Of a stretch of DNA of 64,000 bases, positions 20,161 through 54,508 are shown one piece after another; positions within the stretch are counted from its first letter, which is position 1, and each line of letters begins with the position of its first letter. Position numbers and translations under genes: made by a program. The notes under the pieces were generated by a model that was not told the DNA's origin, searched no databases, and saw only the letters and a program-made list of their open reading frames with translations. Source of the stretch: a virus. The DNA lies in IMG/VR virus record IMGVR_UViG_3300046507_000506, positions 1 through 64,000 of that record. One strand, 5' to 3'.

Positions 20161-20164
<4 letters not shown>
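19439..20164 (-). CDS. Fibre-associated protein, beta-rich
   Basis: 241 residues from GTG 20164, which overlaps the collagen fibre stop as GTGA. Repeating Ser/Thr/Ala beta segments (TITSTGWTLLVTFQFSTRNN, EPASYAFNGAACYAMNIGII) are typical of a jelly-roll or receptor-binding tip. No family recognised. Coupled to the collagen-like fibre, so probably its tip or partner. Confidence 0.5.
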
Positions 20165-21803
<1,639 letters not shown>

Positions 21804-21807
<4 letters not shown>

Positions 21808-22217
21808 TGTGCAGCGACCTCGCGCATGAGGGCGGGCGTGATGTTGTATTCACCGCGCGCGAGCGCATAGGGCACGCTGTCCTGATTCCAGATGCGCCAC
21901 TCGAAAAAGCCCGCCTTGTATTTCTTCGCGCACTCGATGACAGGCGAAATGGGATATGCACCGGGCGCGGGCGTCATCGACTGGGTATGCGCGGCCGTGA
22001 AGTGCGCAATCAGTTGACCGTTATTGATTTCGATGCCGCTGTTTTCCGTCGTGAGGTCCACGAGCGGGGTCGTATCGGTGAGATTCGCGAACAGTTGCAG
22101 GCGCGATTTGCAGCCGCTAAGGTCGTACTGCTGGCCCTTGCTGTCGAGCCATTCGCTGATGACGACGTCGCGCGGGATGCCCTGCTCAAAGTCGATATTG
22201 AAGATTGCTGCTGGCAT
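21804..22217 (-). CDS. Fibre operon leader protein (BppU-like)
   Basis: 137 residues from ATG 22217; longer upstream extension is rejected as it is Arg-rich shadow sequence. Beta-rich, with FNIDFEQGIPRDVVISEWLD then CKSRLQLFANLTDTTPLVDL, the pattern of small upper-baseplate or fibre-anchoring domains. Its stop overlaps the collagen fibre start, so it probably anchors that fibre. Confidence 0.55.
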
Positions 22218-26561: not shown

Positions 26562-28667
26562 TCAGTTGTAATAGAGCGGCACGAGCGCCATTGCATCGGC
26601 GACGACATAGCCAGTCGTGCCGGTGTTGCTCACCACCACCTTGTTATTCGCCTGGTCGCCTGCGGTGAATGAGTAGGTTCCAATGAGCTTCCACGCGCCG
26701 CTACTGTACTGGTTGATGTTGACTGCCGCCTGTGCCACGCCGCCAGCGGTCACCGTATGCGGCACGTTGCCCGCGCGCGTGGCCCCTTCTGGAAAGAACG
26801 CATAAACCGCGTAAGTGCCCGCTTTCGCCAGATTGAAACGGAACTCGACCGTGCCGGTCCCCTTGTTCACCGCGTTGTCAGTGATGTAGGTTGGCCCATA
26901 TGCAGAGGCTTCACTGAAGGTGGCGAAGGTCTGCGCTTCCTGCCACGTACCGGCGACGACCATCTGACCGTTCGGATCAGCATACGTGCCTGCCGCGCTC
27001 GCACCGGGCGGCAGGTCGAGCACGATTGCGCCGGGCGGGAAATAGCCCATCGCTTCCCTGATCTTGTACGGGTCAACCGCCTGCACAGTGGTTGCGAGGT
27101 CAATCGCACGCGCCGCCGCATAGCCCGCCGCCTCGCCCAGTTGCATCGCGATAGGCTCGACGCGGATAGACGCGAACGCAGCATGCGACGCCGACACGGC
27201 GAACGTAACGAGCAGGTTCGTGCACTCGGCGGCCTTCGGACACATGGCCTTGTAGCTGATCCAGTAGCGGCCATCCTGCCCGCCCGCCTGCGTTTTCTGG
27301 AAGAACCCGCCTTCGAGCGCGACGTACCCGTTATAGACGACCGTCTGACAGTGATGCGAGTCCATTGCATAGAAGCCGACGCAGATGCCGTCGGTCACCA
27401 GATCGATGCGCTGGCAATGCCGATCCGTCATGACGAAGTCGCCGACCATGCGGCGGCCCTCGCGCACGTACAACTGCTTCGGCATGCCGTGACGGGTAGG
27501 CATCTGCGAATACGGCGGCAGGCCGAATCCGGCGAGCGTCGTTTTGATGTTCGCAGGCACGCGCGCATCCTCGCGCAGGAACTTGAACAGCCCGAGCGTC
27601 CAATCGACATGCTGCTTATAGATGGCGGCGCGCTGCGCATACGTCGCCGTCGGCCACGCGTCCGCGCCGCCGATGAAATCAAGCTGTTGCAGGGCCGCGC
27701 CCGCATTGAGGTCGGTCACGCCATCTTTGCAAAGCCGGTCATTGAAAAGGCCGGGCGGGCTCGCGTTGTCGCTCCACGCCGTGATATGCCCGGCCGCGAA
27801 CTGACGCCCAAGAATCTCGTAATTGAGCGGGTTGTAGGTCGTCGGCTCAGGAAACCTGCGGTACGTTCCCGGCCCGCCACTGGTCGAAACGACGTTGACG
27901 CGGAACCCGTACGCCTGCACGCGGCTATCGCCCGATCCAACTGCGCCGACAGCAGCATTCACGCCCGGCAGCAAACCGGAAGCGGCAACACCGGCAGTCA
28001 CGTACGGATCGACCTGCCACGCGCCGCCCTTGTTGTAGGGCGCGACGACGCCGTTGTATGTCTCGTTGTACTGGCTGTTCGGCTCCCGCCCGACGGTGAA
28101 CGAGCACCCTGCCGCCGCCATAAGATCGCCTTCATAGGTCGCGTCGATATAGACCGACGCAGTCACCGAAAGCAGAGGAGCCGTGACCGGCGTAAGCGCA
28201 TCCTCAAACGTCACCGCCGTTATTTTCGTGCCGGTCTTTTTAACGCCAGTCGCAACCACGCGGTAGTTGTGCCGCACGACAATCCGACTCGCGGCAAGCA
28301 GCGCCGTCAGTTGCGTGGCCATCGTCTTTGGCGAGCCGTTGAGACTTTGCCCCCAAAAGGTCGGGTAGTCCGTCGCATTGGCAGTGTAGTTCGCGCTCCA
28401 TATGGCGCGATACAGCACGTTCGCCAGCCCCTTGAGCACGTTGCAATCGCCGCCCGCACGGTCGGTATAGCTCAGGCCGCCTTGCGTTGGCATACCCCCG
28501 AATATCGCATCCGGGTTGATGAGTTCAACGAGCATGCCGTTCTGAGCCGCAGACACGGCGGCCATGATGCCGCTTGCCGTTGCACCATATACGCAAACAT
28601 CAACGTTCCGTGTCGCGTACAGCGAATCAGCCTTTTTTCTGGAGATCGGCGGCGGTCCCATATCCAT
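26562..28667 (-). CDS. FAD-dependent oxidoreductase fused to golvesin-like domain
   Basis: 701 residues. Near residues 20-55: VDVCVYGATASGIMAAVSAA, a Rossmann FAD loop of the FAD_oxidored family (GxTxSG variant), then LINPDAIFGGMPTQGGLSYT, the flavin-site GGxxTxGG element. VYIDATYEGDLMAAAGCSF and VEPIAMQLGEAAGYAAARAI are further family blocks. The last 130 residues (about GTWQEAQTFATFSEASAYGP to YVVADAMALVPL) match the golvesin/xylanase-associated beta domain. It lacks a signal peptide and sits among fibre genes behind a fibre-adaptor gene, so the inference is a virion-borne enzyme, perhaps oxidising surface glycans. Confidence 0.7.
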   Translation of the reverse strand: MDMGPPPISRKKADSLYATRNVDVCVYGATASGIMAAVSAAQNGMLVELINPDAIFGGMPTQGGLSYTDRAGGDCNVLKGLANVLYRAIWSANYTANATDYPTFWGQSLNGSPKTMATQLTALLAASRIVVRHNYRVVATGVKKTGTKITAVTFEDALTPVTAPLLSVTASVYIDATYEGDLMAAAGCSFTVGREPNSQYNETYNGVVAPYNKGGAWQVDPYVTAGVAASGLLPGVNAAVGAVGSGDSRVQAYGFRVNVVSTSGGPGTYRRFPEPTTYNPLNYEILGRQFAAGHITAWSDNASPPGLFNDRLCKDGVTDLNAGAALQQLDFIGGADAWPTATYAQRAAIYKQHVDWTLGLFKFLREDARVPANIKTTLAGFGLPPYSQMPTRHGMPKQLYVREGRRMVGDFVMTDRHCQRIDLVTDGICVGFYAMDSHHCQTVVYNGYVALEGGFFQKTQAGGQDGRYWISYKAMCPKAAECTNLLVTFAVSASHAAFASIRVEPIAMQLGEAAGYAAARAIDLATTVQAVDPYKIREAMGYFPPGAIVLDLPPGASAAGTYADPNGQMVVAGTWQEAQTFATFSEASAYGPTYITDNAVNKGTGTVEFRFNLAKAGTYAVYAFFPEGATRAGNVPHTVTAGGVAQAAVNINQYSSGAWKLIGTYSFTAGDQANNKVVVSNTGTTGYVVADAMALVPLYYN

Positions 28668-28677
28668 AACGACCTCC

Positions 28678-29100
28678 TTAGCTAATCGTAATTTCGGGTT
28701 GGTAGATCACAACGCCGTCAGCGTCGCGGGTGACGGCAGGCTGTGTGATCGTCTTACTGACGGTGCCATTGACGTACGTCGCATGCCATGCATTGATGGC
28801 CCCGTCATCAGTGGTCGCGTCAGTCACATAGACGCCAGTCGCGCCGTCCGGCCACACGATGTTTGCCGTTGTCACAACGCCATTGGCGTCAAGCGGAATA
28901 GGATTCGACGTTGGTCTGTACGCGCCTGAATATGCCCATTGCAGCAGGTTCTGCGGGAGCATCGCGGCCAATGCCGCACTGACTGTTTCGGCACTTTCCT
29001 CGGCGGCGGAAGCACTCGCCCTCGCCTGAGTGACGAGCGCCTTCATTGATTTCGCCACACCGGAAAGCTGGTAGTTGCGAGTCCAGTCGCCATAGCTCAT
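28678..29100 (-). CDS. Fibre adaptor protein, short paralogue
   Basis: 140 residues. The N-terminus (MSYGDWTRNYQLSGVAKSMK then ALVTQARASASAAEE) matches that of the 32468-33079 protein (MNYGEWIKLWQLTGISKTMK); the remainder is unrelated. This suggests a shared attachment domain with swapped distal parts. It precedes the FAD gene by 10 bases. Confidence 0.6.
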   Translation of the reverse strand: MSYGDWTRNYQLSGVAKSMKALVTQARASASAAEESAETVSAALAAMLPQNLLQWAYSGAYRPTSNPIPLDANGVVTTANIVWPDGATGVYVTDATTDDGAINAWHATYVNGTVSKTITQPAVTRDADGVVIYQPEITIS

Positions 29101-29537: not shown

Positions 29538-32468
29538 TCAATAGCGCTTGATGCGGTAACGCTTGAACGCGTTGGTCGTGATTCGCTGAGACGGTGTTTC
29601 GACCACGATGTTGCTGGCCGGTACGTTCAGCGCAATCGTGGACGTCCAGCTTAGGAAGCCCTTTTTGCGATCCTCCGTCGCGCAGTAGTTTCGCAGCTCA
29701 TCGCCGCTCGCGTCCGCGTTGCAGTAGTTCAGGCTGTAGACGTCGAAAACGTGCTTCGCGCGCAGCGTCATCAGCTGCTCGTTGACCTCCTTGGAGAACG
29801 CAAGCGAGTCCGCGTCTGTGAGCTTGAAATAAGCCCCGGTGTTCTCATTCCATCCCGTCAGCCACGACTCGAACATCACGCCCGAACACGACTGGATATA
29901 GTTGTTCAGGTTCGAGAATCCCCGGTTTGAAATCAGCTTCGTGCCGGTTCGCGCCTTCAGGTTGTTCACGAGCGCAGCCATCGCGTCGCCCATCTGCGGA
30001 TACACGTCGGCATCGTCAGGCGTGTCCATGAAAATGCCGTTCATGCGGTGCCCCTTGCGGGTGTACGAAATCAGCAAGGTCTGATTCGCCGTCACCGCAG
30101 GCGTGATGCCCGCATTGAACACAAAGGCTCCCGTCTTCATGTCCATCGTGTAGTCCGCATTCTTGCGATAGATGCCCGTCACGCCATCGAGCGTGGTGAG
30201 GGTGATATCCGCGTCCGCATCAATCGGGAATTGCGCCGTATCGAACACGAGCACCGGACCTGATGAAATCGTGGCCGCCTTGACCGTGACCGCCTCGTTT
30301 GTCACGACGACCGGGCCTCCGAGCACGGTCGGCACGTAGTAGCTCATGATGCGATCCAGCCACGACGGCTTGCCCGCGTCCGCGTAGTACGCCGCCCACA
30401 CGCCATTCTGATCGGGCACGGTCGGATTGGCGATGCTGAAGTCCTGCATGTAGCCGCCATCGACCTGTTGATATTTCGGGCACTTGGTGCCCGTTTGCAG
30501 TTGGTGGATGGGCTTGTAGCTTGGGCAGGTTGCGTTCGTGCAGGCGGTGTTCGCATCCGGCCGCTGCCATTTGTTCGCCGACGTGAAGCCCGCACCGCAA
30601 GCGCCACCGGTTGAAAACGCCAGATACCCGTTCAGGCTGTCGAAGCTACAGGCCGCGCTGCAACGGCCGGTTCCCATGAAGTACATAGGTTGGGCCTGCG
30701 CACAGGTCTTGGTGCCCGCCACGGCCTGATTGTCGAATGTGCACTCGGTGCATTCGCGACCCTGATACCCGCCCTTCATGTAGTAGCTGGCATTGCCACC
30801 CGGCCCGCCACCATCGCCGACATAAGGCGCATTGGCCGAAAGGAAGTCGTACCGGTTCGAGTAGAAACCATCCTCCTCGCCTATCGAGATATAGCCGTAC
30901 ACCTCGATACCCATTGCCTGCCACGCCAGCACGTCGGCCGCGCGCGCCGCAAACGGATCGACAATCAGAATGTCGTACTGCGCGAGGGTATCGGCATAGC
31001 CCGGCTGGTAGCACACGGCATAGGTCGGAAAGCGCTCAAGCACCTCGGTGTATGCGATGTTGCTGTTCTGCCGCACGACCGCGCCGGACGAATCGAGCGC
31101 ACCCGCCACCGGCGCATCGTAGGAAAGCGAATAGCCATCGTCCGCCACATTGACCACCGGCAGCGCATACGGCTGCTGCGCATTGGCAACGATGTTCACC
31201 GTCTCGGTGATCTGCGAATAGAACGCGCTCGCGGTCCAGCTTGCCGAGACAAAAATCACGAACTTTTTGCTCGTCGTGCTCTGGCGTAACACGCAGGTAT
31301 TCGTGCCGGTCGCGGGCCATCCCGAAATCGTTGCGGTGAAAAGCTGATCCTGATTTGCATTACATGACACGGTCCCCATGAGGGTGCCGTTACCGTCATA
31401 GACGTTGAAAATCCCGTAGCCGAAATCCTGCTCGACCGTGATCGACAACGATGAACCGGTGAAGGTAAAGGAAAGCTGGTTCGACGCGCTCCCGGCTGCA
31501 TTGTTGTAGATACGCGTCACGCCGCCGGGCGCGGCCGTGTCCTTTGACCATGCACCCGTCGCGGTGATCGCGGAACTGTCCGCCGCCATTGTCACATTGA
31601 CGGCCTGGCTGATCGTTCCATTCGGGTCTTGATACAGCGCCGAGAGCGCGAGCGGAAACACCTTCTGCCCGCTGACTTCGTCGCCGGTGAAAGCGGGCAT
31701 GATGACCTGATGCACCGGCGCGCCGTCATTGAGCACGGCCGCGCTGGTTGGAGCGAGCGCAGCATTGTTCGCATCCACCACCGTGGCCGGATAGGTGAGC
31801 GAGACATTGGTAATCGCCTTGCCGCTGCGATTGACGAGGCTCAGCGTCTGCTGGTTCTGCACGAGCTTTTTGCTCGACGGCACAATCCAGACAGCGTCCT
31901 GCACGAGGTCACGGCTCTGGAAGCTGTACGTCTTGTAGCCTGCGAGCGCGAGATACGCCTCGCCGGTGCCGTTCGCATAGATCACGCAGGTATGCGGACC
32001 ATTGCTCAGGCCGTCGGCCACGAGCACATCAGCGTAGTCCGGCCCGTCTAGCTGGTAGGTTGCCGAGTCGCAGGAAACCGTGTTCGCGTAGCCAAGAATG
32101 CCGCTGATGGTCGAGGGCTGTACGCCGTCGATAAAGACCTTATGCGCGGTCCCCCATCCAAAGTCCGTATTCAGACGCAGCACGAGCGTTGTGCCGGTGA
32201 AATGGATTGTGACCGCACCCTTCAGACAGAAGGCGCGCTTTTCCTGCAACGTCGTCGGGATTGTGTTCGGGCCGCTGTCGCGCACCCAGTCGCTTGTCCC
32301 GACGTTCGTGCTCGGCGGAATGGTGAAATTGCCACTCGATAGCGAGACGCTGGCGTCATCAATGCTGGCCCACTGGGAGCGGTTATCACGGTAGTTCGTA
32401 CCAACGCCGTCCCACGTCTGACTGCTCTGGATCAACACCGCATCGGTGTATTTTACGAGCGCTGCCAT
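29538..32468 (-). CDS. GH114-like glycosidase with beta-sandwich N-terminus (putative depolymerase)
   Basis: 976 residues. Residues about 1-430 hold repeated galactose-binding-like sandwiches (TTLVLRLNTDFGWGTAHKVF and SSLSITVEQDFGYGIFNVYD are related). From about 450 comes a TIM-barrel of GH114/polygalactosaminidase type: YDILIVDPFAARAADVLAWQ, GIEVYGYISIGEEDGFYSNR, RMNGIFMDTPDDADVYPQMG, TKLISNRGFSNLNNYIQ and VMFESWLTGWN. A Cys-rich insert (about 590-680, with ECTECTFD and TACTNATCPSYK) interrupts the barrel. Likely degrades a galactosamine-type surface polysaccharide. Confidence 0.65.
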   Translation of the reverse strand: MAALVKYTDAVLIQSSQTWDGVGTNYRDNRSQWASIDDASVSLSSGNFTIPPSTNVGTSDWVRDSGPNTIPTTLQEKRAFCLKGAVTIHFTGTTLVLRLNTDFGWGTAHKVFIDGVQPSTISGILGYANTVSCDSATYQLDGPDYADVLVADGLSNGPHTCVIYANGTGEAYLALAGYKTYSFQSRDLVQDAVWIVPSSKKLVQNQQTLSLVNRSGKAITNVSLTYPATVVDANNAALAPTSAAVLNDGAPVHQVIMPAFTGDEVSGQKVFPLALSALYQDPNGTISQAVNVTMAADSSAITATGAWSKDTAAPGGVTRIYNNAAGSASNQLSFTFTGSSLSITVEQDFGYGIFNVYDGNGTLMGTVSCNANQDQLFTATISGWPATGTNTCVLRQSTTSKKFVIFVSASWTASAFYSQITETVNIVANAQQPYALPVVNVADDGYSLSYDAPVAGALDSSGAVVRQNSNIAYTEVLERFPTYAVCYQPGYADTLAQYDILIVDPFAARAADVLAWQAMGIEVYGYISIGEEDGFYSNRYDFLSANAPYVGDGGGPGGNASYYMKGGYQGRECTECTFDNQAVAGTKTCAQAQPMYFMGTGRCSAACSFDSLNGYLAFSTGGACGAGFTSANKWQRPDANTACTNATCPSYKPIHQLQTGTKCPKYQQVDGGYMQDFSIANPTVPDQNGVWAAYYADAGKPSWLDRIMSYYVPTVLGGPVVVTNEAVTVKAATISSGPVLVFDTAQFPIDADADITLTTLDGVTGIYRKNADYTMDMKTGAFVFNAGITPAVTANQTLLISYTRKGHRMNGIFMDTPDDADVYPQMGDAMAALVNNLKARTGTKLISNRGFSNLNNYIQSCSGVMFESWLTGWNENTGAYFKLTDADSLAFSKEVNEQLMTLRAKHVFDVYSLNYCNADASGDELRNYCATEDRKKGFLSWTSTIALNVPASNIVVETPSQRITTNAFKRYRIKRY

Positions 32469-33079
32469 TACTGAATCCCAAGGAGCTTGATTTCCACATC
32501 CAGCGTCATTGGGTTGGCATCAATGTTCGTGACGAGCACAAACAGATTGCCGGACGCAAGCGGCGGAATGAAAAAGGAGGCGTTGTCGATAAAGGCCGGA
32601 TCGGTGATCCCGCTCGACCGGTAGAGCAGCGCACCGGCCGCGCTGCCGTCATAAAACTCCAGTTCGTAGTTCTGGTTGCCGACGGTCTGATTGGTCGCCT
32701 TCACCTGCAACACGAACGAACCGAACGCCGTGCCCACGGCGAGCGTTGCATTGGCTGTTGCGCCAACGGCGGCAGCAACCGCGATAGACGGCGGCGCGAG
32801 CGTGCGCGATGCCACGCCCTCCGTTGCGGTCGAGGCCGCAAGTTGGGCGGCGGCGGCACTGTCAGAAGCCTGTTGCGCGCTTGTCGATGCGTGGCCCTCC
32901 GACGTGGATGCAGCTTGGGCGGCAGCTTCGGCGGCGGCAGCAGAGGCAGCGGCATCGCCGATCTGACCCAACGCCGTCGTCGCGGTCTGCGCAGCGTCCG
33001 TCGCCTGCGCGACAAGCGCTTTCATCGTCTTGGAAATGCCCGTAAGCTGCCAGAGCTTTATCCACTCGCCATAGTTCAT
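32468..33079 (-). CDS. Fibre adaptor protein, long paralogue
   Basis: 203 residues. N-terminal adaptor (MNYGEWIKLWQLTGISKTMK), an Ala/Ser-rich coiled-coil stem (AAASAAAAEAAAQAASTSEG), and a beta-rich end. Overlaps the glycosidase start by 1 base and the 33076 gene by 4. Probably anchors the glycosidase to the tail. Confidence 0.6.
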   Translation of the reverse strand: MNYGEWIKLWQLTGISKTMKALVAQATDAAQTATTALGQIGDAAASAAAAEAAAQAASTSEGHASTSAQQASDSAAAAQLAASTATEGVASRTLAPPSIAVAAAVGATANATLAVGTAFGSFVLQVKATNQTVGNQNYELEFYDGSAAGALLYRSSGITDPAFIDNASFFIPPLASGNLFVLVTNIDANPMTLDVEIKLLGIQ

Positions 33080-51868: not shown

Positions 51869-52630
51869 ATGAACGCACCACTTCAATTAACGCCTGAACA
51901 AGCTTTCCCGTCGCTCGAAGTGAACCTGATCCCGCTGCCGGACGGTCACATGGGCGAGTTCTTTGGTGCGCTCGCTGCCGCTCAGGGCGCATTCGATCAT
52001 ATCGAGAAAAGCAAGCATGTGATGATCCGCCCGCGTGACGCAAGCAAGGCCGCCTACTCATTCAAGTATGCGGACCTCGCTGAAATCCGCAGCAAGACTA
52101 CGCCCGCGCTGGCCGCCAATAAACTCGCGCTCACGCAACTCGTGACGAACAAGCCGCGCGAGGTCGGCGGCATCATGATCCGCACGATTCTCGGTCACGC
52201 AAGCGGCGCGCGCATGGAGGCCGTGCTTGACCTCCCCAAGACAAATGGCGACGTCAAGGATTTGGGCGCGTATATCACCTATCTGCGCCGTTATGTCGTT
52301 GGGCCGATGCTTGGCATCGCGGCCGATGATGACCTTGATGAGGATGGCGAGCCGCCTGCCGGTTCGTCACCAATGGGCTACTCGGCGGAACCGTCCACGC
52401 TGCGCAATCCGGCACCGTCGAACCCGGCTGAAACGCCCCTGCTGCGCGACGCGAAAAGCATCAAGGAACTGACGACGGCGTTCAACAAGTTTTCGCCGGA
52501 AAACAAAGACCGTTTCCGCGCGCAGTATGAACGCCTGCTCGAAGCGCTTGACGTCCCGCCCCCTACCGCTGCTGCCGCCAAGGGTGCGACACCGGCCGCC
52601 GCCGCTGCAAAGCCCAAGGATGACCTGTGA
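51869..52630 (+). CDS. erf: ERF-type single-strand annealing protein
   Basis: 253 residues. FFGALAAAQGAFDHIEKSKH, then AAYSFKYADLAEIRSKTTPA and NKLALTQLVTNK, GGIMIRTILGHASG and KDLGAYITYLRRYVVGPMLG give the ERF family core: YADLAEI and GAYITYLRRY motifs. Anneals single strands during phage recombination. C-terminal 80 residues are a flexible linker plus short helix. Overlaps the exonuclease by 4 bases. Confidence 0.8.
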   Translation: MNAPLQLTPEQAFPSLEVNLIPLPDGHMGEFFGALAAAQGAFDHIEKSKHVMIRPRDASKAAYSFKYADLAEIRSKTTPALAANKLALTQLVTNKPREVGGIMIRTILGHASGARMEAVLDLPKTNGDVKDLGAYITYLRRYVVGPMLGIAADDDLDEDGEPPAGSSPMGYSAEPSTLRNPAPSNPAETPLLRDAKSIKELTTAFNKFSPENKDRFRAQYERLLEALDVPPPTAAAAKGATPAAAAAKPKDDL

Positions 52631-53352
52631 TCGTCGTTGACTGCGATCAGGGCACGCCCGAATGGCACGCTGCGCGTGCTGGCGTCATCACCGCCAGCAT
52701 GTTCAGCACCGCCCGCAAGTACAAGGCGGGCGGCGAAATGTCGGAAACCGCCAAAAACTACGCGTTCAAGCTTGCCATCGAGCGGATCAGCGGCGTGCCG
52801 CTCGATGAGTGCCATCAAACGTGGCAGATGACGCGTGGCCAACGGCTCGAACCTGAAGCCCGCGATCACCACATGGCTGATATTGGCCGCCGCGTCAAAC
52901 AGGTCGGGCTCGTGCTCAGTGATGACCGGAAGTTCGGCGCGAGCGCGGACGGCGCGATTGACGGTGACCCGCAAGGGCCGGGCGGTGCCGAATACAAGTG
53001 TCTCGTGAGCCCGCTCGAACTGCGCAAGGTCTACACCGAGAACGACTACATGAAGTTCTACGATCAGGTGATGGGCGGCCTGTGGCTCACCGGCAAAAAC
53101 TGGTGGGACTTTTGTGTGTACTGCCCCGCCATGCGCAACGTGAACAAGCATTTCAGGCGCTGGCGCATCCGGCGCGATGACGACTATATCGACGCCATGT
53201 CGCTCGACCTCGTTGCATTCGACAACCTGGTCGAGAGCTACCGCGCCACGCTGATGATCGAAGCCGATCCGGCAGTAATGGAGGCCGCTGCTGCAACGCT
53301 CGACCCGCTTTCGCGCGCCCTTCTGATACCACCTGGTATCAGTGTTATGTGA
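52627..53352 (+). CDS. YqaJ-type recombination exonuclease
   Basis: 241 residues from GTG 52627, overlapping the ERF stop. [20 protein letters not shown] is the YqaJ start; [22 protein letters not shown] carries catalytic Asp and the ExK motif. Lambda-exonuclease relative that resects ends for the annealing protein. Its last codons include the TGATACCA palindrome (53323-53342). Confidence 0.8.
53323..53342. promoter_or_regulatory. TGATACCA palindrome upstream of rdgC
   Basis: CTGATACCA, two bases, TGGTATCAG: 9-base arms, perfect. It is within the end of the exonuclease gene, 45 bases before rdgC, and repeats the sites ahead of parA. Confidence 0.6.
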
Positions 53353-53386
53353 CCTTGTAACACAACATAAAAACAGGATATTTCAC

Positions 53387-54508
53387 ATGTGGTTTCGTAA
53401 TCTCACCCTCTACTCGTTTGACAGCATCCCGACGCTGGAAAGCCTGAATGCCGCGCTCATGACGCGCCGCTATACGCCGTGCACGGACATAGAGCAGTCC
53501 TCAGCCGGGTTCGTGCCGCCGCGCGGCGACGATGCCCTGCTCGTGCTGCCGGTCGATACCCAGTGGCAGATTGCGCTGTGCATCGAGCAGAAGGTGCTGC
53601 CCGGCTCTGTCGTGCGCGACGAAACCGAACGGCGCGCGGCCGAAGTCGAGCGCTTGCAGGGTTTCAAGCCCGGCCGCAAGCAGCGCCGCGAAATCAAGGA
53701 TGAGGCAACCGACATGCTGCTCGCGCAGGCATTCAGCAGGCGCAAGACGGTGCGCGGCTGGATCGACACGCGCCGCGCGATTCTCGCCATCGATACCGCC
53801 TCGACCACGACCGCCGATCTGTTCGTGGCGAACCTGCTGCGCGCCATCGAGGCCAATATCGGCCTGCGCCCGCTCAAAACCGTGCTGAGTCCGGTTGACG
53901 TAATGACGGCATGGGTTGGCGAGAGCGACGCGCCTGACGGCTTCACGATTGACAGCGACGCGACGTTCTCAGGCTCCAATCGCGGCGTCGTGAAGTACTC
54001 GAACACCGCCCTTGAGGGTGCGGACGTGGCAAGCCAGATTGAAGCCGGAAAGCGCGTGACGCGCCTCGCAATGACTTGGGGTGACAAAGTCTCGTTCGTG
54101 TTTTCGTCTGACCTCGTGATCCGCCGCGTGAACCCGCTCGACGTGCTCAAGGAAAAGCCGGAAGACGGCAAGCTGTCGGCCGCTGCCGATTTCCTGCTGA
54201 TGGCCGAATGCCTCGCCGCGCTCGTGCAGGCGCTCGTTGCCTCGCTTGATGGCATCGCGCCGGTGTCCGACCTCGCCGACGAGGAGCCTGCCGCCCCTAC
54301 CCTGCCCGCCGACGGCGACGACCTGCTGCCGCAGGCCCGCGATATCGTCATCAAGAATGAGCGCGCGTCTATCTCGCTCGTGCAGCGGCACCTGCGCATT
54401 GGCTACAACCGCGCTGCCGCCCTGCTCGAAGCCCTGGAGGCCGCTGGCGTGGTAAGCGAAATGAAATCCAATGGCTCGCGTGACGTTCTCGCAGGAGCGC
54501 AAGCATGA
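53387..54508 (+). CDS. rdgC: RdgC fused to an FtsK gamma-like DNA-binding domain
   Basis: 374 residues from ATG 53387. [60 protein letters not shown] and [20 protein letters not shown] are RdgC family blocks. RdgC is a ring-shaped DNA binder that limits RecA, usually about 300 residues. Here residues about 310-372 add [20 protein letters not shown] then [26 protein letters not shown], the winged-helix gamma domain normally at the end of FtsK/SpoIIIE. It is joined by an Ala/Pro/Asp linker. The fusion is not one I know. Confidence 0.75.

Follow-up and report, generated by a model that had tools for sequence, protein, structure and literature searches.

A golvesin-bearing FAD oxidoreductase in a phage tail-fibre locus as a candidate virion-docked enzyme

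Why should a phage encode a 701-residue flavoprotein next to the adaptors of its tail fibres? To our knowledge, the virion-borne enzymes that act on glycans are hydrolases, lyases, esterases and deacetylases. The original prediction for this locus, made from the DNA alone, was that the protein is a redox enzyme carried on the virion and acting on surface glycans. We examined the gene and its surroundings in the first 64 kb (here called the window) of a 93,641-base virus record. Taken as a whole, the model that we find rather probable is that the FAD enzyme is a virion-docked payload which oxidises host surface or extracellular polysaccharide. The features on which the analysis relies are collected in Table 1.

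Table 1. Features of the flavoprotein locus in the window (positions are those of the window)
Feature	Position	Strand	Basis
FAD oxidoreductase-golvesin gene, payload, 701 aa	26562..28667	-	PF12831 and PF25275 matches, dN/dS
Golvesin_C beta domain, residues 567-696	26580..26969	-	Pfam; kin to 6F2P C-terminal domain
FAD_oxidored domain, residues 23-539	27051..28601	-	Pfam, AlphaFold, invariant-residue check
Divergent docking peptide (proposed), residues 1-18, MDMGPPPISRKKADSLYA	28614..28667	-	Comparison with consensus MGILDAPG.S..AD..Y
Ribosome-binding site AAGGAGG, overlapping the adaptor stop codon	28673..28679	-	Sequence reading
Adaptor gene (140 aa), directly before the payload gene	28678..29100	-	Gene reading, alignment, AlphaFold
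Adaptor C-terminal beta domain, residues 60-140, proposed payload-docking domain	28681..28923	-	Alignments and AlphaFold
Start point of DNA similarity to other FAD phages	28866..28890	.	DNA comparison; similarity runs up to the FAD stop codon
Helix of the adaptor (residues 6-58), probable stalk, with anchor-like N-terminus MSYGDWTRNYQLSGVAKSMKALV	28927..29085	-	AlphaFold and record-wide search
976-aa protein behind the second adaptor, probable second payload	29538..32468	-	phrog_37372; weak resemblance to GH114 and CE2_N, below threshold
Second adaptor, 203 aa, same N-terminal anchor MNYGEWIKLWQLTGISKTMKALV, different C-terminal domain	32468..33079	-	Record-wide search; weak tail-fibre PHROG match

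The flavoprotein and its predicted flavin site

The FAD gene starts with an ATG located 10 bases past the stop of the upstream adaptor gene and preceded, 5 bases upstream, by its ribosome-binding site. Both domains named in the original prediction were recovered by Pfam far above cut-off, PF12831 (FAD_oxidored) with an E value of 7.8e-75 (253 bits against a cut-off of 27; profile positions 1–415 of 416) and PF25275 (Golvesin_C) with an E value of 1.4e-20 (74 bits against 31.6). In profile comparison, the latter is related to the C-terminal domain of the Paenibacillus xanthan lyase 6F2P (E 3e-30). Across four phages, dN/dS was 0.06–0.08 over residues 19–540 and 0.06–0.13 elsewhere. Purifying selection on the gene is strong (dN/dS about 0.07) and the reading frame is therefore a selected protein, so that the predicted combination of domains in a single ORF holds at the level of both profiles and codons. 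No PHROG family matched the protein. A hydrolase or lyase tailspike depolymerase was ruled out, FAD_oxidored and Golvesin_C being the only domains above the Pfam cut-off, with no beta-helix, glycosidase, lyase or SGNH domain. A sugar oxidase of the GMC/AA3 type was ruled out as well, GMC_oxred giving no Pfam match in the protein at E values up to 0.1.

The AlphaFold model, computed from a 48-row alignment, had a mean pLDDT of 84, with values of 93–98 in the Rossmann core and in the closing FAD segment. The domain contains the Rossmann motif G28xT30xxG33, G57, G58, G64, D69, the DxxYEGD (175–181) and GRE (193–195) motifs and, further along, R402, R406, N484, R502 and E504. Among the residues checked, every one that is invariant in 40 bacterial homologues is kept (G28, G58, G64, D69, D175, E179, G180, D181, R194, E195, E202, D330, R346, R402, R406, R502 and E504), and the phage clade to which the window protein belongs retains G28, T30, G33, G57, G58 and G64 together with every invariant charged residue. 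The Thr at the middle Rossmann glycine is found in 39 of the 40 bacterial rows. The usual ribose-binding acid, E51 in 32 of these rows, is Asn in the window clade. Thus, none of the flavin-contacting residues whose absence would have spoken against the original prediction is missing from this confidently folded, ligand-free model, the ribose acid being replaced by Asn. That the fold binds flavin is predicted with high confidence.

Foldseek comparison of the model retrieved flavocytochrome c3, Thi4, 3-ketosteroid dehydrogenase and complex II (E 1e-9 to 1e-7), and xanthan lyase for the golvesin part. TM-scores were low (0.2–0.3), as the fold in its entirety is not represented among solved structures; hence none of these corresponds to the substrate domain. 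A Foldseek search of BFVD gave neither a whole-length relative nor a tail-associated FAD protein.

The adaptor and its pairing with an N-terminal peptide

As the original prediction stated, the gene belongs to a fibre-adaptor neighbourhood: one adaptor is directly upstream, and a second adaptor and a 976-aa protein lie farther upstream. The adjoining adaptor is predicted to form a 53-residue helix followed by an 80-residue beta domain (AlphaFold monomer, pLDDT 93). Pfam gave no match for the beta domain and PHROG none for the adaptor, and a structure comparison of the monomer returned no PDB fold match below E 0.46. The T4gp10-like branching dock of Klebsiella and G7C phages was set aside on this last result. 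The beta domain aligns with 19 adaptor domains of other phages, W38, D40, G44, G55, T74, Q75, R80 and P90 being invariant in the alignment. In addition, the C-terminal half of the adaptor is matched by genes in 41 phages of Arthrobacter and Gordonia. In the three of these phages that were examined, the 3' neighbour of the matching gene encodes a glucosaminyl deacetylase, an SGNH/GDSL hydrolase or a hydrolase, and one of the three matching genes, followed by the SGNH hydrolase, is annotated as a minor tail protein.

The peptide proposed to dock on this domain was defined as an N-terminal M[GS]xLDxPG...AD..Y. It reads MGILDAPGLARHQADSLYA and MGFLDAPGVSKSKADALYA in close FAD relatives, of which L005 and L006 match the consensus. 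In the window protein the LDAPG core is lost (MDMGPPPIS) and the second half (KADSLYA) is intact. The same peptide opens enzymes of unrelated fold that are encoded behind the adaptor, such as an SGNH hydrolase (MGVLDIPGMSRAQADRFYS) and a deacetylase (MSFLDAPGVTAAGLDSA).

The association was sampled from both sides. When viral contigs were scanned for ATG-GG-x-LDAPG, 32 stretches were obtained, and in nearly all of those with a payload-sized ORF the adaptor beta domain was found immediately upstream, with L110 and L136 as clear exceptions. Independently, 80 loci were retrieved by scanning for the adaptor domain. A protein starting with M[GS]xLDxP was encoded by 57 of the 72 next genes versus 3 of the 1,024 other ORFs of these loci (odds ratio 1,293; Fisher one-sided p 4e-77, a value that is only indicative given near-duplicate loci). 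The three other ORFs carry the full peptide, and their loci contain tandem adaptors or a second fibre gene. By Pfam, the payloads were SGNH/GDSL (31), FAD_oxidored (3), GH43 (3), pectate-lyase-like (3) and polysaccharide deacetylase (2) proteins, with single matches to BNR, Phage_depo_C and alpha/beta hydrolase; no redox class other than the FAD oxidoreductase occurs among them. At their N-termini, other adaptors carry Mtd_N, phage_tail_N, PTR or collagen domains and match tail fibre, minor tail or head fibre PHROG families. Together with the pairing, this variety of virion-type N-termini suggests that diverse virion proteins end in the beta domain and that the peptide is its partner on the payload side. 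We infer that the two bind each other directly. In five loci (L126, L102, L153, L186 and L207), adaptors occur in tandem or the adaptor domain follows a beta-helix protein, and more than one LDxPG payload is present; these are possible multi-headed arrays.

The N-terminus of the adjoining adaptor recurs once in the whole record, at the start of the second adaptor, which precedes the 976-aa protein. One anchor with two heads is the pattern expected of a branched fibre. The anchor motif MxYGxW...MKALV, searched as a DNA pattern, had no match in viral_contigs, and tblastn with the second adaptor gave none in phages. The sole close phage relative of the 976-aa protein is orf52 of Pseudomonas phage SCYZ1, and the gene before it likewise encodes a coiled-coil protein with a particle-protein annotation. 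A GH114 assignment is not claimed for the 976-aa protein, the match being below the Pfam cut-off. With its adaptor, this protein probably makes up a second adaptor/payload pair, which would use another docking domain. The window contains a further fibre-type locus (20161–22217) beyond the P1-like one at 3–12 kb; it encodes a 548-aa collagen-like tail-fibre protein with dozens of GDKG repeats and has a small phrog_1084-type gene upstream.

Cassette borders and relatives in phages and bacteria

Terminase and baseplate proteins of the window have relatives in P1, D6, Xanthomonas phage Rb1 and Acinetobacter phage ABMM1; the phage is P1-like and possibly a phage-plasmid. Genes for an Erf-like ssDNA-annealing protein and a recombination exonuclease (51869–54508) fit a recombinogenic phage of this type. 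DNA similarity to L008 or L009 begins within the adaptor beta domain, at 28866 or 28890, and extends as far as the FAD stop codon. The terminase and baseplate proteins of the window had no match in L008, L009 or L010, and the L008 terminase was found only in L009 among the compared records. Hence, the stretch from the adaptor beta domain to the FAD stop codon, shared across unrelated backbones, moves as a cassette. Similarity to L010 begins precisely where the first Rossmann strand does, at 28610; this record keeps the enzyme without the docking peptide and without the adaptor domain, which indicates that docking is not obligatory. Downstream of the cassette in L009 (12149–18898), two proteins of 1,561 and 514 aa have an ITKRDGTxV-type N-terminus and a common segment near the C-terminus.

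PF12831 also occurs in the FAD-dependent oxidoreductase proteins of Rhizobium phages N3_19, Y55 and I72 (MN988527, MN988500 and MN988554), whose gene sits between the portal and capsid genes. In these phages and in several viral contigs, the FAD domain follows an N-terminal domain of about 300 aa that is common to other phage proteins, and in L016 it is fused to a tail-fibre-like N-terminus. The Rhizobium phage proteins differ from the window protein in this N-terminal fusion, in having no golvesin domain and in forming a separate clade, and in two of them the flavin motif is degraded. In the Rhizobium-type proteins L003, L004 and L017, GYGFEAQT or AYGFTVQS replaces the GxTxxG Rossmann motif and the other family-invariant residues are kept. 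Flavin binding is possibly lost or changed in these three proteins, and the fold can therefore persist without a canonical flavin site.

In the tree, the Rhizobium-type proteins stand apart and the window clade falls among bacterial golvesin-bearing proteins. Two label changes were counted, with a single change in 38% of bootstraps and with L015 and L016 on long branches. Capture of the FAD domain by phages more than once is likely on this tree; a single phage origin, as in the bootstraps with one change, is the less probable alternative. Secreted bacterial proteins with PF12831 and Golvesin_C resemble the window protein over both domains at near full length (33–37% identity, invariants in common). 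Their genes adjoin those of SusC/D, TonB receptor, sulfatase, GH3, GH42, GH30 and GFO/IDH/MocA proteins. The bacterial N-termini look signal-like by eye, whereas the phage protein has no signal peptide; in phages, a docking peptide stands in this place and the gene follows an adaptor.

Proposed function, alternative explanations and known systems

The adaptor-peptide pairing, the DNA borders of the cassette and the fusions of FAD domains to N-terminal domains, a tail-fibre-like one among them, strongly support, by comparison, the first half of the original prediction, a virion location through fibre adaptors, which had been guessed from gene position. The FAD protein is very probably docked on the virion. 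The second half, redox action on surface glycans, is plausible by analogy. In the proposed mechanism, the N-terminal helix and anchor would hold the adaptor on the particle, and its C-terminal beta domain would bind the N-terminal peptide of the enzyme encoded right after it. A FAD oxidoreductase with a golvesin-type, carbohydrate-associated domain would thereby take the slot that esterases, deacetylases and lyases occupy in other phages. Upon host contact, the enzyme would oxidise surface or extracellular polysaccharide and might loosen it in this way. We lean slightly towards a redox activity of the protein on glycan. Polysaccharide is our best guess for the substrate, from the golvesin domain, the sister payloads and the bacterial gene context. 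O2, giving H2O2, is our guess for the electron acceptor, being the simplest for an enzyme outside the cell. More speculatively, oxidation to a keto-sugar followed by beta-elimination could let an oxidoreductase help to open a polysaccharide layer. A characterised PF12831-golvesin enzyme of known reaction was not found. Literature searches for a tail-fibre or tailspike FAD oxidoreductase, GILDAPG, golvesin with FAD oxidoreductase and PF12831 with polysaccharide retrieved nothing, most subscription journals being outside the search.

A docked protein could also be non-catalytic, the FAD fold and the golvesin domain together forming a glycan-binding adhesin, a former enzyme turned receptor-binding head. 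The loss of the Rossmann glycines in L003, L004 and L017 with retention of the fold, the change of Glu51 to Asn in the window clade and the need of a virion-fixed enzyme for an external electron acceptor are all in keeping with such a role. However, the window clade keeps the glycines and the invariant charged residues at a dN/dS of about 0.07. A protein that only binds would gain nothing by keeping these residues, so that their retention counts against the adhesin, which we regard as unlikely.

Still less likely is lysogenic conversion, in which the enzyme would act inside the host or after release from it, altering surface polysaccharide or blocking superinfection, and its position among fibre genes would be incidental. 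The phage is P1-like, perhaps a phage-plasmid, and conversion genes are carried by phages of this kind; in addition, L010 has no adaptor. Yet the phage protein is made without a signal peptide, its gene is linked in translation to an adaptor gene that elsewhere precedes depolymerase-type payloads, among others, the pairing of adaptor and peptide is tight, and FAD domains elsewhere are fused to a tail-fibre-like N-terminus. An ordinary auxiliary metabolic flavoenzyme acquired from a bacterium, for which one could cite the abundance of the FAD-golvesin architecture in Bacteroidota, Planctomycetota and Verrucomicrobiota, is very improbable, as there are no metabolic genes around the FAD gene and as several phages with differing backbones have it in the same position with the same partner, the borders falling at the docking domain.

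If the docked-enzyme model is true, a tail-docked flavoprotein adds a redox class to the ways in which phages cross surface polysaccharides. The pairing rule allows payload genes to be annotated from their position and first eight residues, and predicts virion enzymes that homology alone would leave as hypothetical proteins or metabolic genes. A broader proposal, which we advance only tentatively, is that the uncatalogued beta domain and M[GS]xLDxPG constitute a widespread, interchangeable docking standard that loads many enzymes, here a flavoenzyme which would break polysaccharide oxidatively, or redox-neutrally by oxidation, beta-elimination and reduction, and not by hydrolysis or ordinary lyase chemistry.

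Flavoenzyme chemistry on sugars has a model in the FAD-dependent GMC/AA3 oxidases, pyranose oxidase and glycoside 3-oxidases (PMC10646112), which form keto-sugars with O2 as acceptor, although the window protein has no GMC match in Pfam. Keto-sugar formation followed by a beta-elimination that cleaves the glycosidic bond is described for other enzymes (PMC10628242). The principle of peptide-docked enzymes is already known. In the branched receptor-binding proteins of K1-5, K1E and SP6, a short N-terminal peptide docks separately encoded enzymes, and the same has been proposed for Klebsiella phages (PMC6872550). These systems share with the present one, proposed here from sequence, a virion anchor or adaptor, a short conserved peptide and payloads swapped by horizontal transfer. 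In the former, each phage group has its own peptide, and a T4gp10-like protein or an adaptor serves as the dock (PMC6872550), whereas here one peptide and one beta domain extend from proteobacterial-type phages to those of Gordonia and Arthrobacter, with an oxidoreductase as payload. What looks new is therefore the adaptor domain with its peptide, their spread across host groups and the presence of an oxidoreductase among the payloads.
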